From: Paenibacillus harenae DSM 16969
GTDB lineage: Bacteria; Bacillota; Bacilli; Paenibacillales; Paenibacillaceae
Length of the DNA stretch: 64,000 bases
Reading direction: 5' to 3'
Assembly: GCF_000422465.1 (NCBI RefSeq)
Contig: NZ_KE383845.1
Span: forward strand, 232,241 to 296,240
Numbering within the stretch: position 1 is the first letter of the stretch; each line of letters begins with the position of its first letter. Of the stretch, positions 39,788 through 45,189 are shown piece by piece. The notes beneath the pieces are model-generated. The model had not been told where the DNA came from, did not search any database, and saw only the letters and a list, made by a program, of their open reading frames with translations. The position numbers were made by a program, and so were the translations under genes.

Positions 39788-40597
39788 TCAGATCCCCGGA
39801 ATCGAGGTGCGCTTATGCTCGGTTTTCAAATATTGCTTTTCCAGCTTCTCGCGCGCTTCCGCGCTAATTTCTTTGCCCTCGAGGTAATCGCTGTTATCGC
39901 CGTACGTGATGCCAAGCTCGCCCTCGTCGGTTTGCCCGTCCCAAAGACCGGCGGACGGCGCTTTGTCGAGAACGCTTTGAGGCACGCCGAGATGCGAAGC
40001 CAGCTGCCTCACCTGACGTTTGTTCAGCGTGCTGAGCGGAGTAATATCTACCGCGCCGTCGCCCCATTTCGTAAAGAAACCGGTAATCGCTTCGGACGCA
40101 TGGTCCGTGCCGACTACAAGCAGGTTCAAATCAAATGCCAGCGCGTATTGCGTAACCATACGCGTTCTCGCCTTGATATTGCCCTTGCCGCCGCGGCTCA
40201 GATGGCGCGGAATGCCAAGGGCTTTGAAGCCGTGCTCGACCTCGAGCGTAATCTCGTCTACCGCTTCCTCGATATTCGTCTCGACCTTGTGCTTCAGCCG
40301 GAACGCCTCGGCAACCGCGTAGCTGTCCGCGATATCCGCTTGATCGCCATACGGCTGGAACACGCCGAGCGTCATGTACTCCCGGCCCGTCTCCTCGCTC
40401 AGCTCATCCGTGGCGCGCTTGCAAAGACCGGTCGCTACCGCGCTGTCAATGCCGCCGCTGATCGCGATCAGCAGCCCTGTCGTGCCCGACTTCTTCACGT
40501 ATTCCTTTAAGAAATCGACCCTCCTGCGAATCTCCGCCTCCGGATCGATGGACGGCTTCACGCCAAGACGCTCAATAATTTCGGATTGTAGGCTCAT
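39788..40597 (-). CDS. nadE: NAD+ synthetase, ammonia-dependent
   Basis: A 269-residue enzyme for the last step of NAD synthesis, amidation of nicotinic acid adenine dinucleotide with ATP. The PP-loop SGGIDSAVATG lies at 47-57, and the protein lacks a glutaminase domain, so it uses free ammonia. Other family segments are LVVGTDHASEAITGFFTKWGDG and the late PSAGLWDGQTDEGELG. GGGGCGG precedes the ATG. It follows the bacilliredoxin gene by 15 bases on the same strand. Confidence 0.95.
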   Translation of the reverse strand: MSLQSEIIERLGVKPSIDPEAEIRRRVDFLKEYVKKSGTTGLLIAISGGIDSAVATGLCKRATDELSEETGREYMTLGVFQPYGDQADIADSYAVAEAFRLKHKVETNIEEAVDEITLEVEHGFKALGIPRHLSRGGKGNIKARTRMVTQYALAFDLNLLVVGTDHASEAITGFFTKWGDGAVDITPLSTLNKRQVRQLASHLGVPQSVLDKAPSAGLWDGQTDEGELGITYGDNSDYLEGKEISAEAREKLEKQYLKTEHKRTSIPGI

Positions 40598-40612
40598 GAG
40601 ACACCGCCCCGC

Positions 40613-41047
40613 TTAACGGCAGAACCGATCGAATGCGTCTGTCAGATCAGCTGCGATGTCCGCTGCGGAACGGTTCTCGATTTGGTGCCGCTCGATAAAG
40701 TGTACCAGTTCTCCGTCCTTCATCAATGCGATCGAAGGAGAAGAAGGCGGGTACGGCGCAAAATATTCGCGCGCTTTCGCTGTCGCTTCTTTGTCCTGTC
40801 CCGCAAACACCGTGTACAAATGATCCGGCGTAATATCGTGCTTCAGCGCTTCCGCTACGCCCGGACGGCATTGGCCGGCCGCGCAGCCGCATACCGAGTT
40901 CACGACGACGAGCGCCGTTCCGCTTGCGTTAGGCAGTCTTACCTCCACCTCTTCCGCCGTGCGAAGCTCCTGAATACCGATGCGGGTAAGATCGTCGCGC
41001 ATCGGTTGAACCATATCTAACATGTATCTTTCGAATGACATAGACAC
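40613..41047 (-). CDS. brxA: Bacilliredoxin of the BrxA (YphP) type
   Basis: A 144-residue thioredoxin-fold protein that removes bacillithiol from oxidised proteins. The CGC active site lies at 53-55 in VVVNSVCGCAAGQCRP, which is the family's hallmark, and the N-terminus MSMSFERYM closely matches YphP. I chose the GTG at 41047, 10 bases after AAAGGAG; an ATG two codons later is an alternative but is too far from that site. The bacilliredoxin suggests the organism makes bacillithiol. It is co-transcribed with nadE. Confidence 0.9.
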   Translation of the reverse strand: MSMSFERYMLDMVQPMRDDLTRIGIQELRTAEEVEVRLPNASGTALVVVNSVCGCAAGQCRPGVAEALKHDITPDHLYTVFAGQDKEATAKAREYFAPYPPSSPSIALMKDGELVHFIERHQIENRSAADIAADLTDAFDRFCR

Positions 41048-41126
41048 AAGAAACACACTCCTTTAATTACTTTATTTTAGCTACTATTATACCGTCCGAA
41101 ATCAAAATAAAGCAACCGGAGCGCAT

Positions 41127-41528
41127 TTACTCCGGTTGCCCTTTTTTCGCCGAGTCCGATATGTCGTCCGGATCGCCGGCTCCGTAAGCCGTATTTTTGT
41201 CGGGATGCATAAATATCCCGCCTTGCGGCGGAAGCCCCTTCTCGAATATGCCGCGGTTTTCGGCCGTCTGAAATCCTACGTCCTTAAAAGGATGCACCCA
41301 CTCGTCGCCCGCCATAACCGCCGGATCCGTCTCCGTGCTCCACTGCGACAGCGGCGAATCCGGTGACTCGTAGAGGTGATCTCCGATCACAACGCCGTGC
41401 CGGTTAACAAAAGGGGCACGGCTGCCCCGCCCTTCCCGAAACTGCGGCAAAAACTCGATCTCATACGGATCGAGCGCCGGATCGCCGTTAATCGGGCCGT
41501 CCTTACTCTCAGGCTTGCGGTCAGTCAC
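41127..41528 (-). CDS. DUF3905-like protein
   Basis: A 133-residue hydrophilic protein rich in Asp, Pro and Gly. The conserved-looking core APFVNRHGVVIGDHLYESP, then SPLSQWSTETDPAVMAGDEWVHP, and IFMHPDKN match my memory of the DUF3905 family found in endospore formers, but I cannot run a search. The start is a GTG at 41528, which follows GGAGGGAG. It is the second gene of a pair with a 46-residue protein 15 bases upstream. Confidence 0.6.
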   Translation of the reverse strand: MTDRKPESKDGPINGDPALDPYEIEFLPQFREGRGSRAPFVNRHGVVIGDHLYESPDSPLSQWSTETDPAVMAGDEWVHPFKDVGFQTAENRGIFEKGLPPQGGIFMHPDKNTAYGAGDPDDISDSAKKGQPE

Positions 41529-41543
41529 AGCACTCCCTCCGTT

Positions 41544-41684
41544 CTATGTAGACGGACGGTTTGGACCATCCAGCTTTTTGTCAAAGCCTTCGGCCTCAGG
41601 CGCTTTACCGCCCCCGGCCGCATTTTGCGCCGCCTGCTTCGCCTGTTCGGCGGAGCGTCCTTTTTCTTCATTTTCTTGTGCCAT
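41544..41684 (-). CDS. Very small hydrophilic protein (46 residues)
   Basis: A short Gln/Glu/Ala/Lys-rich protein opening MAQENEEKGRSAEQAKQ and ending LDGPNRPST, with no hydrophobic segment. GAAGGAGGCG precedes the ATG at 41684 at good distance, which is the main evidence that it is real; a longer frame upstream lacks a site. Its composition resembles small spore or stress proteins, but no family signature is clear. It sits directly before the DUF3905-like gene and divergent from the attenuator promoter. Confidence 0.6.
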   Translation of the reverse strand: MAQENEEKGRSAEQAKQAAQNAAGGGKAPEAEGFDKKLDGPNRPST

Positions 41685-41786
41685 TGCTATCGCCTCCTTC
41701 TCGTATTTCGCAGCCGGCGGGTGAAGCCGGCAGTTGTTCGTCCCACCGGTAGTATGCGCCGAGGGCGGCATCCTTATTAGAAGCAT

Positions 41787-41815
41787 TTGACACATGCGGG
41801 GGAAATGCATATAAT
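41787..41815 (+). promoter_or_regulatory. Consensus sigma-A promoter of the RsgA-type gene
   Basis: TTGACA, a 17-base spacer and TATAAT, all six positions exact in both boxes. Transcription should start near 41822, leaving an untranslated leader of about 255 bases before the GTPase gene. Confidence 0.9.
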
Positions 41816-41833
41816 ACGGATATATTTTACAAC

Positions 41834-42038
41834 AAGGAGGCTGATGAAGTATGCGGTACAATCTTATGGTTCTTGTTACGTGTTCATCGGTCTCTCCGGA
41901 TCATTCAGCCGCCAATATTCAGACGTAACGCCCTGCAGGAGCGTTATTTATTGGGCTGTAATCCGCAGTGACCGCATAGGTTGCATGCGGATTTTTTTGT
42001 GTCTTTTTAGCCGCATGCCGACCGCCTGCGGTTTTTTT
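41834..42038 (+). promoter_or_regulatory. Leader region with short reading frame and two terminators (attenuator)
   Basis: Between promoter and gene lie a strong AAGGAGG (41834-41840), a 25-codon reading frame starting MRYNLMVLV, and two hairpins each followed by seven T: CCGCAT/ATGCGG (41972-41990) and CCGCA/TGCGG (42011-42031). An alternative pairing TAACGC/GCGTTA overlaps the end of the reading frame (about 41925-41947). ATGCGG of the first hairpin can also pair with CCGCAT of the second, giving mutually exclusive folds. This is the layout of ribosome-controlled transcription attenuation; the signal is not known. Confidence 0.6.
41851..41928 (+). CDS. Leader peptide of the RsgA-type gene (25 residues)
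   Basis: The reading frame runs from ATG at 41851 to TAA at 41928 and encodes MRYNLMVLVTCSSVSPDHS and six further residues. A strong AAGGAGG ends 10 bases before the ATG. An ATG at 41844 in another frame is too close to that site and would read through both terminators. No similarity to a known leader peptide is claimed. Its stop falls within the start of the first alternative hairpin, so stalled or terminating ribosomes could decide which fold forms. Confidence 0.5.
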   Translation: MRYNLMVLVTCSSVSPDHSAANIQT

Positions 42039-42076
42039 GCATTTCAAATTAATCAATACGAAGGGGTTTTCATTCA

Positions 42077-43195
42077 TTGGAAAAAAATAACTACCCGCAT
42101 TTGACGGTTTTTGGCTGGAACGACTCTTGGCAATCCGCTTGGGGCGAAAGCGCGCATTTTGGCAATAAAGGCTTTGAGCCTGCCCGTATCGTTGCGCAGT
42201 ATTCGAAGCAGTACCGGGTGGTCACCGAGGACGGCGAGAAGATCGCCGCAGTAAGCGGCAAGTACGAGTTCGAAGCAGGAGGACGAAGCGATTTCCCCGC
42301 GGTTGGGGATTGGGTGATCGCGCAGCCTCTCGAAGGTGAGCAGAGGGCCGTGATACACGCCCTGCTGCCGCGTTTCTCCGCCATGACGCGCAAGGAGGCG
42401 GGAAATGTCGTCGACGAGCAAGTGATCGCGGCCAACATCGATACGATTTTTATTACAAACGCGCTTAATCAGGACTTTAATCTCCGTAAAATCGAACGTT
42501 ATCTCATCGCGGTGTGGGAAAGCGGGGCACGGCCGGTCATTCTGTTGACGAAAGCCGATCTATGCGATGATCCGGACAGGAAAATCGCGTCTGTCCAAGA
42601 CAGCGCGCCGGGCGTGCCGGTTCATGCGGTCAGCGCCCACATGAACAAAGGAAAGGAAGAGCTCGCGCCTTACCTGCTGCCCGGTCATACGATCGCAGTG
42701 GCAGGCTCGTCCGGCGTCGGCAAGTCGACGCTTCTGAACTGGCTGGCCGATGATTCGCTGCAGCAGGTGCAAGGGATACGGGAAAGCGACGCAAGGGGCA
42801 GGCACACGACGACGCATCGCGAGCTGTTCGTACTGCCGACCGGCGCTGTCATGATCGATACGCCGGGCATGCGCGAGCTTCAATTATGGGATGCCGCAGA
42901 CGGCTGGGAGACGACATTTGCCGATATTGCCGAGCTGGCCTCGCAGTGCCGCTTCCATAATTGCTCGCATGAGTCGGAAGCCGGCTGCGCCGTCAAGGAG
43001 GCGCTCGATAGCGGAACGCTCGATTCTCGCCGTTACGCGAATTATAAGAAAACCGAGAAGGAGCTTGCTCATCTCGCCCGCAAGGAGCAGGCCAACAGCC
43101 GGAAAGCCGAGAAAAAAGCCGGGAAGCACTCGGGAGCGAAGTCCAAACGGGGCTCGCACGAGCGCAATCGCCACAGTCTTATCGATCTGGAATAA
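42077..43195 (+). CDS. rsgA: RsgA-type circularly permuted GTPase (ribosome small subunit)
   Basis: A 372-residue GTPase that in known cases assists late 30S assembly. The motif order is permuted as in RsgA/YjeQ: an N-terminal OB fold (about 35-110), then G4 TKAD (158-161), G1 GSSGVGKST (210-218), G3 DTPGM (261-265). A zinc knuckle follows with Cys291, Cys296, His298 and Cys304. The last 60 residues are Lys/Arg/Ser-rich and probably bind rRNA. The TTG start at 42077 follows AAGGGG by 10 bases. The attenuator-like leader suggests that it is induced under particular translation conditions. It may be an additional copy beside the housekeeping rsgA, which the window does not show. Confidence 0.9.
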   Translation: MEKNNYPHLTVFGWNDSWQSAWGESAHFGNKGFEPARIVAQYSKQYRVVTEDGEKIAAVSGKYEFEAGGRSDFPAVGDWVIAQPLEGEQRAVIHALLPRFSAMTRKEAGNVVDEQVIAANIDTIFITNALNQDFNLRKIERYLIAVWESGARPVILLTKADLCDDPDRKIASVQDSAPGVPVHAVSAHMNKGKEELAPYLLPGHTIAVAGSSGVGKSTLLNWLADDSLQQVQGIRESDARGRHTTTHRELFVLPTGAVMIDTPGMRELQLWDAADGWETTFADIAELASQCRFHNCSHESEAGCAVKEALDSGTLDSRRYANYKKTEKELAHLARKEQANSRKAEKKAGKHSGAKSKRGSHERNRHSLIDLE

Positions 43196-43214
43196 GCAAG
43201 GGAGGGATGCATTG

Positions 43215-43378
43215 GTGAATTCAAGTGCACATATGCACTTGATTCGCCGCCATATGGCGATAGGAGTGAATTCAAGTGCACATATGCACTTGATTCGCCG
43301 TCGTACGGCGATATGAGTGAATTCAAGTGCACATATGCACTTGATTCGCCGCCGTACGGCGATAGGAGTGAATTCAAG
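43215..43378. repeat. Tandem 51-bp repeat, three full copies and a partial fourth
   Basis: Units begin at 43215, 43266 and 43317, with an 11-base partial unit at 43368. Each unit starts GTGAATTCAAG and carries two inverted repeats: TCAAGTGCA/TGCACTTGA, identical in all copies, and a CGCC...GGCG palindrome whose inner bases change together (CCAT/ATGG in unit 1, CCGT/ACGG in unit 3). The array lies between the convergent RsgA-type and kinase genes. Because 51 is a multiple of three, several frames stay open but none has a ribosome binding site. Confidence 0.9.
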
Positions 43379-43391
43379 AGCTGTTATAGCA

Positions 43392-45068
43392 TCAGACGGC
43401 TTTGCCGGTCTCAACCTGCGGCAGGCCGAAGGATACGATGAACGTCGTGCCTTCCCCTTCCGTTGATTCCACTTCGATCCGCCCGTTATGGCGCTCGGCA
43501 ATGCTTAAGCACAGTGGGAGACCGAGTCCCGTCCCGCGCGCTTTCGTTGTAAAAAAAGGCTCGAACAGCTGCTTCATCTGCTCCGCCGGAATGCCAACGC
43601 CTTCATCGGCAATTCTCAGCTCGATTTTTCCGCCCCGGCATCTGGTGCTGATGCGCGTGACGCCCCTGTCTCCCATCGCTTCCATCCCGTTCCGGGCCAG
43701 ATTCAGCACCAGCTGCTTGATTTCCCGGTCGTTGAGCAAGATGAGGGGCAAATCATGGCAGAAATCCACCTCGATCGACTGTCCGCGCAGGTTTGCGTCG
43801 GCGTTGAGCAGTGGAATTAGCTCATTTATAATATCGTGCAGCGAAGCAAGCTGCATCTTCAGCGCCCTGTTCTGGGCTAACGACAGAAAGTCGCTGATAA
43901 TCATATTCGCACGATCCAGTTCATCGATGATAATTCGAAAATATTGCTGCTGGCTCTTGGGGCTGCGCTCCTGTATAAGCTGAACAAAGCCGCGTATGAC
44001 CGCCATCGGATTACGGATTTCATGCGTGATGCTTGCCGCCATCTGACCCACGAGGCTGAGACGCTCCATGCGGCCAAGCTCGTCCCGGAGCTGGCTGATT
44101 TCCGTTACGTCGTGCGCGATAAGCGCCGCGCCCGCAATTTGGCTTTTCATCAAGCTTCTAAGCGAGAAGGTCGTCAACAAAAGCGTCCGACCGCCATTCT
44201 CGAATGGAACCAATGAGGATTTCTCGCCTTTAAGCGCCTGGTTGAGGGTGTCGACGAACAGATTGCTTGGCCCGGGTTGGAACAGCATTCGAAATGGCAC
44301 GCCCTGCGCCTTGACGGCTGACATATATTCCGGCTTGATCGATAGAAGCTTCGTCACCATGTCGTTCATATGCGTAACCTTGCCTTCCCCGTCCGTAATA
44401 ATAACGGCGAAGGTCGTCTCGTCAATAAACTGCTGCAGCTTCTCGACCTCATCCCGATAACTGGCCGATATGCGCAGCACTTTCTCATGGAGCTGCGTCT
44501 TCTCCTTCACGCTCTCGATCATAAAAATCGACAGCCAGGTTGCCGTCAAAATCGCGGAAACAGCCAATACCAGCCCTATCACCAGGTAGAATGTCCATTC
44601 AGCGTTCCGGCTGTGAATGTACCCGGTTATCATGACGAAGATAAAAATCACCATAAACGACATGAGCTGCAGGCCACGGCGTTCTTTGTTGAGCGCGGAA
44701 GCGCGTGCAAAAGGGCGAATCGAGAGCCCTATTAACGGAATGAAGACGATCATATACAGGATAAAACTCACCGTTTCCCACATGCCGTCAAGCATCGGAA
44801 TCCGGATCGCAAAGTAAACGAACGACATGACAACCAGAACGGGCACTCCCCCATATAATGCGCCGATCATATAAGGAACCGCATGGAAGTCCAGGTCGTA
44901 GCCAAACGCGTTTGAAGCCGACATTATACAAAGCACCATCGACGTACCGCAAAAAATGCCCATAAAAACAGGCATCCTCATAAGGCCCTGTTCTTTATCC
45001 TGCCTTAACTGGAAGGCAAAAACAGGCAATAAGGACAAAATAAATTGTAACAGCAGTTCCTTTAACAC
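43392..45068 (-). CDS. KinB-like sporulation sensor histidine kinase
   Basis: A 558-residue membrane kinase. Around six hydrophobic helices fill the first 190 residues, in the 5TMR/LYT-like arrangement of KinB. Next is a PAS domain (about 215-325), the HisKA helix with the phosphorylated His in ASITHEIRNPMAVIRGF, and an ATPase domain with LARNGMEAM (N box), IADEGVGIP (G1) and TKARGTGLGLPLC (G2). I prefer the GTG at 45068, preceded by GGGGG at about 12 bases, which makes the N-terminal helix start properly; a GTG at 45110 is an alternative. No response regulator is adjacent, as expected for orphan kinases of the sporulation phosphorelay. The window also encodes KapB, a known KinB partner. Confidence 0.85.
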   Translation of the reverse strand: MLKELLLQFILSLLPVFAFQLRQDKEQGLMRMPVFMGIFCGTSMVLCIMSASNAFGYDLDFHAVPYMIGALYGGVPVLVVMSFVYFAIRIPMLDGMWETVSFILYMIVFIPLIGLSIRPFARASALNKERRGLQLMSFMVIFIFVMITGYIHSRNAEWTFYLVIGLVLAVSAILTATWLSIFMIESVKEKTQLHEKVLRISASYRDEVEKLQQFIDETTFAVIITDGEGKVTHMNDMVTKLLSIKPEYMSAVKAQGVPFRMLFQPGPSNLFVDTLNQALKGEKSSLVPFENGGRTLLLTTFSLRSLMKSQIAGAALIAHDVTEISQLRDELGRMERLSLVGQMAASITHEIRNPMAVIRGFVQLIQERSPKSQQQYFRIIIDELDRANMIISDFLSLAQNRALKMQLASLHDIINELIPLLNADANLRGQSIEVDFCHDLPLILLNDREIKQLVLNLARNGMEAMGDRGVTRISTRCRGGKIELRIADEGVGIPAEQMKQLFEPFFTTKARGTGLGLPLCLSIAERHNGRIEVESTEGEGTTFIVSFGLPQVETGKAV

Positions 45069-45189
45069 GGACGATCGGTTCCCCCTACTCGCGTTCCGAA
45101 TGCATGCCACATCTATTGTTATATTGTACTAGTACACCGATGCCGAATCTATGGATTGTTACTCCGATTAAAACATAAATGCCCTTATT

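Follow-up and report, generated by a model that had tools for sequence, protein, structure and literature searches.

The window, a 64,000-nucleotide stretch of the Paenibacillus harenae DSM 16969 genome, carries on its plus strand (42077..43195) the gene for an RsgA-type GTPase of 372 amino acids, with circularly permuted G motifs and a zinc-binding cluster recognized by eye. By score the protein belongs to the RsgA family (165.2 bits against TIGR00157, cutoff 100; 174.9 bits against PF03193, cutoff 30), and its best relative of solved structure is 6h4d (E 8.7e-37). It shares family models and G motifs with RsgA / YjeQ / CpgA but is a paralog: its own genome has a single further match, and the two proteins are 32% identical. 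RsgA is described in the relevant part of PMC6912228 as a 30S assembly factor that contacts the small subunit at its A-site region and at helix 44. The neighboring genes (39788-45110) lie on the minus strand and encode an NAD synthase, a disulphide-isomerase family protein, a DUF3905 protein and a sensor histidine kinase, and the GTPase gene is probably a single-gene unit. Just 3' of it, at 43215-43378, is a 51-bp tandem repeat of 3.2 copies with the palindrome AAGTGCACATATGCACTT in each. Among 72,556 plasmid records, 177 matched the GTPase, all at less than 60% identity and many of them probably ordinary RsgA, and these matches are therefore uninformative on plasmid-borne copies. One RsgA-type GTPase, 53.7% identical, is located on the 101-kb Brevibacillus marinus plasmid NZ_CP034542.1 (16341-17336).

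The gene is preceded by a leader, also on the plus strand, that begins with the promoter TTGACA-17-TATAAT (41787..41815), which matches the consensus at 12 of 12 positions and was the sole perfect one among the four promoter-like sites in a 4-kb scan (2.4 expected from shuffles). Transcription would be expected to start near 41822. The ribosome binding site AAGGAGG (41834-41840) stands before a putative leader reading frame, MRYNLMVLVTCSSVSPDHSAANIQT, recognized from the sequence at 41851..41928 and consisting of 25 codons plus TAA. Two hairpins follow: terminator 1 (hairpin 1), AATCCGCAGTGACCGCATAGGTTGCATGCGGATT, at 41960..41993 with a folding energy of -19.0 kcal/mol and seven T at 41992-41998, and terminator 2 (hairpin 2) at 42010..42032 with -10.8 kcal/mol and seven T at 42032-42038. 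Nine terminator-like sites were found in the 4-kb scan, with 4.5 expected. The original prediction had listed an exact consensus promoter, a strong ribosome binding site with a 25-codon frame, two GC hairpins each followed by seven T and a ribosome-assembly GTPase starting with TTG. All of these are present, the GTPase frame beginning with TTG at 42077, but hairpin 1 is larger than it was described to be.

Six RNA segments were defined in the leader. Segment 1, GAGGCTGAT (41837..41845), is part of the extended ribosome binding site of the leader; segment 2 is ATCGGTCTCTCCGGAT (41886..41901), late in the leader frame; segments 3 and 4 are the 5' and 3' arms of terminator 1 (3:4); and segment 5 (42011-42023) forms terminator 2 together with segment 6 (5:6). 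Segment 2 can pair either with segment 1, through 41886-41894, as an anti-antiterminator (-18.8 kcal/mol in the window leader) or with segment 3, through 41888-41901 and 41961-41974, as the main antiterminator, and segment 4 can pair, through 41979-41990, with segment 5. Two alternative pairings had been proposed originally. The one between the hairpins, ATGCGG with CCGCAT, belongs to the conserved 4:5 pairing and is supported, whereas the main antiterminator 2:3 had been overlooked. The other, TAACGC with GCGTTA over the end of the frame, does exist as a stop-codon hairpin (41925..41947, -9.3 kcal/mol), but a T-tailed hairpin of similar sequence and place was found in only one other leader, L003, when 58 leaders were scanned, and it was rejected as a general antiterminator on this ground; L149 and L154 have hairpins near the stop codon that are unlike that of the window. 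The stop-codon hairpin could be a pause site.

A match to the GTPase protein was found in 59 of 60 genomes, its own included, and at E<=1e-100 in 302 of the 392 genomes of the order. At least 80 named loci from genome contigs and two further sets of fetched stretches gave 168 upstream regions, L048 and L051 having been left out beforehand for their short upstream sequence, and removal of 15 duplicates left 153 distinct regions. The pattern GGAGG[CT][TC]G[AT] followed by a frame and T-tailed hairpins was present in 58 of these, and L043, with a variant site, brought this first type to 59. Another 29 loci, from other Paenibacillaceae, Bacillaceae and other families, had the same order of parts in other letters, some with no second terminator assigned, giving a total of 88 of 153. 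The 65 regions outside the 88 include those of cyanobacteria, Clostridia, Sporolactobacillus, Brevibacillus and several Paenibacillus; L059 and L083 were kept there since they have the binding-site pattern but no frame, and L174, L179, L180 and L186 were left there as well, although the layout is visible in them. After the removal of 38 near-duplicates from the 88, 50 non-redundant leaders were available for comparison. A promoter matching at least 9 of 12 positions was found between 90 and 20 nt before the leader start codon in 46 of the 50 (5.8 expected from shuffles), the frame was 17 to 32 codons long in all 50, a frame having been required for assignment, and in 48 the frame extended past the end of segment 2. 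Terminator 2 could be assigned in 43, and the remaining 7 were omitted from the counts for 4:5 (n=43). The absence of the reading frame or hairpins from relatives had been named in advance as an outcome that would count against the leader; both are kept.

The leader appears to be dedicated to this one gene. A strict form of the leader pattern had one site in the window's own genome and at most one per genome across the scans, with matches in 8 of 51 genomes of the genus (one match for the reversed-pattern control) and in 16 of 392 genomes of the order (none for the control). All 25 fetched matches to the strict pattern, from 19 distinct genomes, have the GTPase gene directly downstream, and a wider regulon was rejected for this reason, with the reservation that strict patterns miss variants and other genes may carry diverged leaders. 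Upstream of the second RsgA match in the window's own genome no such leader was seen, the sole pattern match being, as judged by eye, that gene's own binding site.

Support for the three alternative pairings comes from a swap test, in which the pairing of segments from the same leader was compared with pairing to the segment of another leader. For the first type (38 non-redundant leaders, 37 of them used for 4:5), swapped pairs were at least as strong as the native ones in 8, 1 and 5 of 5000 swaps for 1:2, 2:3 and 4:5, compared with 4921, 2783 and 2611 of 5000 for the unpredicted pairings 1:3, 2:5 and 2:4. With all types included (50 leaders, 43 for 4:5), the numbers were 0 of 10000 for each of the predicted pairings and 9587, 2960 and 6103 of 10000 for the unpredicted ones, where swaps between lineages could mirror composition, although the unpredicted pairings carry an equal bias and yet stay flat. 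The later types alone (18 leaders, 12 for 4:5) also gave 0 of 10000 for each of 1:2, 2:3 and 4:5, and for all these counts it should be considered that terminators were placed by hand in 17 of the 59 first-type and in all 29 later-type loci, which could favor native pairs. The mean energies of native 1:2, 2:3 and 4:5 were -15.8, -18.7 and -12.2 kcal/mol, compared to -10.6, -11.8 and -6.8 kcal/mol with shuffled partners, and single leaders exceeded all 30 of their shuffles in 25 of 50, 24 of 50 and 21 of 43 cases, respectively. Individual pairs can be followed by eye, such as ACACAACCC with GGGTTGTGT in L018, GTACAGCC with GGCTGTAC in L094 and TCACAGCC with GGCTGTGA in L092, while L046 carries an altered terminator 1, CCGGGAGA...TCTCCCGG, and an altered terminator 2 loop, CCGGGAGACC. 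The comparison thus supports that the mutually exclusive pairings 1:2, 2:3 and 4:5 covary across leaders.

Computed folding of RNA cut at set points, with a stalled ribosome represented by a mask from the binding site to segment 2 and 2:3 called at four or more expected pairs, is consistent with a switch between these pairings. When the RNA ended after segment 3, 2:3 formed in 49 of 50 leaders under the stall mask and in none of 50 when segment 2 was masked, while the free RNA was mixed, with 1:2 in 27 of 50 and 2:3 in 27 of 50. Once terminator 1 was complete, free RNA at equilibrium had 1:2 in 49 of 50 and terminator 1 in 50 of 50, and under the stall mask 2:3 was retained in 13 of 50, with terminator 1 still formed in 37 of 50, the window leader included. 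Addition of segment 5 (43 leaders) gave 2:3 in 20, 4:5 in 20 and terminator 1 in 26 under the stall mask, compared with 3, 5 and 38 in the free RNA. In the window leader with segments 4 and 5 included, the expected pairs of 2:3, 4:5 and terminator 1 were 11.7, 11.9 and 0.0 under the stall mask and 0.2, 0.5 and 11.4 in the free RNA, so that, with both hand-overs taken into account, folding energy would suffice for this leader to switch. Since terminator 1 persists in many of the stall-masked leaders, many would need folding during transcription to decide the outcome.

From these results we propose a relay of antitermination. With no ribosome on the leader, or with the ribosome already past, segment 2 would pair with the leader binding site (1:2), terminator 1 would form and transcription would stop, and any RNA polymerase escaping terminator 1 would meet terminator 2. 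If a ribosome stalled in the early part of the leader frame, it would block 1:2 and leave segment 2 free to capture segment 3, so that terminator 1 would fail; its released 3' arm (segment 4) would then capture the 5' arm of terminator 2 (segment 5), terminator 2 would fail in turn, and the GTPase gene would be transcribed. We consider it highly probable that the leader is a ribosome-mediated transcription attenuator of this kind, dedicated to the second RsgA-type GTPase and conserved in Bacillales. What the comparison supports is the anatomy, the presence of mutually exclusive pairings that covary, and the dedication to this GTPase. Ribosome-controlled attenuation of an RsgA-type gene, which had been suggested from the window sequence, is thereby strongly supported, with at most one pattern site per genome, the GTPase downstream and covarying pairings, although the pairings named at that time differ from the main antiterminator.

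The leader frame overlaps elements that seem to be kept for different reasons. The segment-2 motif CGGTCTCTACGGA and its variants are read as SVST, as RSLR or RPIR, or as IGLFG, and a frame tally, which mixes anchors, is taken only to show that more than one frame occurs; as the motif is found in different frames, it is kept as RNA. Ile-Val codons, on the other hand, fall in frames 0, 1 and 2 in 34, 4 and 3 cases in the 50 leaders, and the peptides contain IV in 26 of 50 (9.3 expected) and [S/T/L]IV in 19 of 50 (2.7 expected), which indicates that many leaders preserve a feature of the peptide. The IV pair starts within the first 13 codons in 30 of 34 cases. In the 28 of 50 leaders with [IV]V upstream of segment 2, the nearest Val codon lies at least 10 nt before the start of the pairing in 22 and nearer in 6, and the spacing in those 22 would let a ribosome stall without covering segment 2. 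The window peptide itself has VLV and no Ile-Val. A macrolide leader of the +X+ type was rejected, as the motif [RK]x[RK] (RLR, RYR) was found in 8 of 50 peptides with 8.8 expected and is absent from the window peptide.

Other explanations of the locus have to be weighed against the attenuator. Terminators of similar CCGC/GCGG sequence resemble each other and their arms can pair by chance, so the hairpins might do no more than end a small RNA or transcript from upstream, in which case the small frame would be incidental and nothing would be regulated. This is very unlikely given that promoter, binding site, frame and both pairings are kept together across families despite changed letters and that the 4:5 swap test had terminators of the same set as controls. 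That alternative RNA structures are present would also suit a riboswitch or a protein-binding antiterminator with an untranslated small frame, an explanation we regard as extremely improbable, as the Ile-Val codons keep frame and Rfam has no match. Release 15 gave no matches at gathering score in the window and only chance-level ones (E 5.6 and 8.9) for the leader, and in 18 related loci there was none in the leaders; a known RNA family for the leader was ruled out by these scans. The sole match in the related loci is a purine riboswitch outside the leader, downstream of the GTPase gene in Brevibacillus porteri (L057, 2713-2814).

The composition of the peptides raises the question of what would slow the ribosome. 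With IV in 26 of 50 peptides and 9.0% Ile, 12.7% Val and 8.0% Leu in the first 14 residues, the leader could be a sensor of branched-chain amino acid starvation, in which a shortage of Ile and Val would slow the ribosome at their codons, as in ilv-type attenuators. We find this unlikely: the order of the residues matters, as VI is not enriched (7 of 50, with 9.3 expected) and a preceding S, T or L is, which points to a peptide signal; moreover, long Ile/Val runs are absent and the GTPase gene is not biosynthetic. A doubtful but more serious possibility is a general sensor of the translation rate or of 30S shortage, where any slow early elongation turns the gene on without a specific arrest peptide and more assembly GTPase is made when ribosomes work badly. 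The diversity of the peptides, 24 of 50 of which lack Ile-Val, the lack of enrichment of the drug-specific +X+ motif (8 of 50 against 8.8) and the role of RsgA as a 30S assembly factor, as described in part of PMC6912228, all agree with such a sensor. However, the ordered, in-frame enrichment of Ile-Val suggests a peptide signal in many leaders, and pure initiation failure should permit 1:2 and keep the gene off. For the attenuator we infer that the switch is triggered by stalling, which in turn would depend on the nascent peptide, the Ile-Val motif being present in about half of the leaders. The natural inducer would probably be a ribosome-targeting antibiotic and the GTPase would have a protective role in relieving the ribosome defect. 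As the binding place of RsgA on the 30S subunit takes in the A-site region and helix 44, the GTPase could plausibly clear or rebuild drug-hit small subunits.

The same GTPase gene looks as if it is controlled by translation attenuation in some lineages. Eight loci with no assigned terminators were folded free and with the early frame masked. In the free RNA of L017 and L188, which have no T-tailed terminators, 1:2 was formed and the ribosome binding site of the GTPase gene itself was sequestered by segment 3; with the early frame masked, 2:3 was formed instead. In L026, L028 and L057, which also have the 1:2 and 2:3 alternatives and lack T-tailed terminators, the 2:3 helix was the best fold in both states, and in the cyanobacterial loci L060, L064 and L065 (Calothrix, Dulcicalothrix) the free RNA paired the leader binding-site region and the masked RNA formed another helix. 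These cyanobacterial loci have a short frame too, and in L060 its binding site GGAGACTGAAC can pair with GTTCAGTC, which lies further along the frame. When the 65 regions outside the 88 were searched automatically for this logic, the signal was weak, with a median z of -1.15 versus 0.00, z < -3 in 5 of 56 versus 2 of 56 controls, and z < -4 in none versus 1 control, and translation attenuation in these lineages is therefore a lead.

In a broader interpretation, to which we give somewhat less than an even chance, the second RsgA would be a drug-inducible ribosome protection or rescue factor, a 30S-side counterpart of HflXr, under an ancient stall control in which the same 1:2 versus 2:3 logic employs terminators in series in many Bacillales and elsewhere (L017, L188 and perhaps cyanobacteria) occludes the ribosome binding site of the GTPase gene itself, with [S/T/L]-Ile-Val as a so far undescribed nascent-peptide arrest motif that serves as sensor in many leaders. 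An RsgA paralog under a putative stall-responsive attenuator, kept by compensatory change across Bacillales, would imply a role in coping with blocked ribosomes. The leader could serve as a ready assay, as compounds that switch it on would be expected to stall ribosomes in a defined way. The leaders also provide a natural series in which one terminator is predicted to hand control to the next, and they offer [S/T/L]-Ile-Val as a candidate arrest motif that differs from the +X+ motif of macrolide leaders.

The original prediction stated that no attenuator had been described for RsgA-type genes, and a search of the open-licence full-text literature for RsgA/YjeQ with attenuation, a leader peptide or induction agrees, as no description of such a leader was found among the papers listed; two papers, PMC10117726 and PMC7157823, mention both RsgA and transcription attenuation, and their parts on RsgA concern other matters. 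Among known systems, the following come closest. According to the relevant sections of PMC6310831, the attenuator rli80 of Listeria hflXr (lmo0762) likewise acts by transcription attenuation on a gene whose product is a paralog of a housekeeping GTPase of the ribosome, and it has a small frame overlapping the anti-antiterminator, an antiterminator and a terminator. One terminator and a 14-codon frame with an RLR motif are described there, whereas the RsgA-type leader has two serial terminators, no RLR enrichment and a GTPase of another family. Bacillus subtilis vmlR, in the account given in part of PMC9226507, shares the anti-antiterminator, antiterminator and terminator, with a stall in the leader frame preventing the anti-antiterminator, but it differs in having a three-codon frame that senses stalled initiation, an ABC-F gene as target and sequestration of the gene's own binding site as well. 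Leader peptide translation that controls termination before a resistance gene is also common to B. subtilis bmrB-bmrCD, for which the passages of PMC4191407 propose the scheme of anti-antiterminator, antiterminator and terminator, and tlrB (yxjB), as treated in part of PMC6851288. In the former the terminator is inside the bmrB frame and the target genes are others, and in the latter an RYR stall and binding-site sequestration are used and the target gene is another. More than one attenuation element per leader is also seen in the tandem attenuators of Salmonella mgtCBR, which, according to the abstract of PMC3641672, differ in having two short frames and in preceding an operon for virulence and Mg transport. 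The layout found here is that of the scheme described for vmlR and hflXr and proposed for bmrB, extended by a predicted hand-over from terminator 1 to terminator 2.
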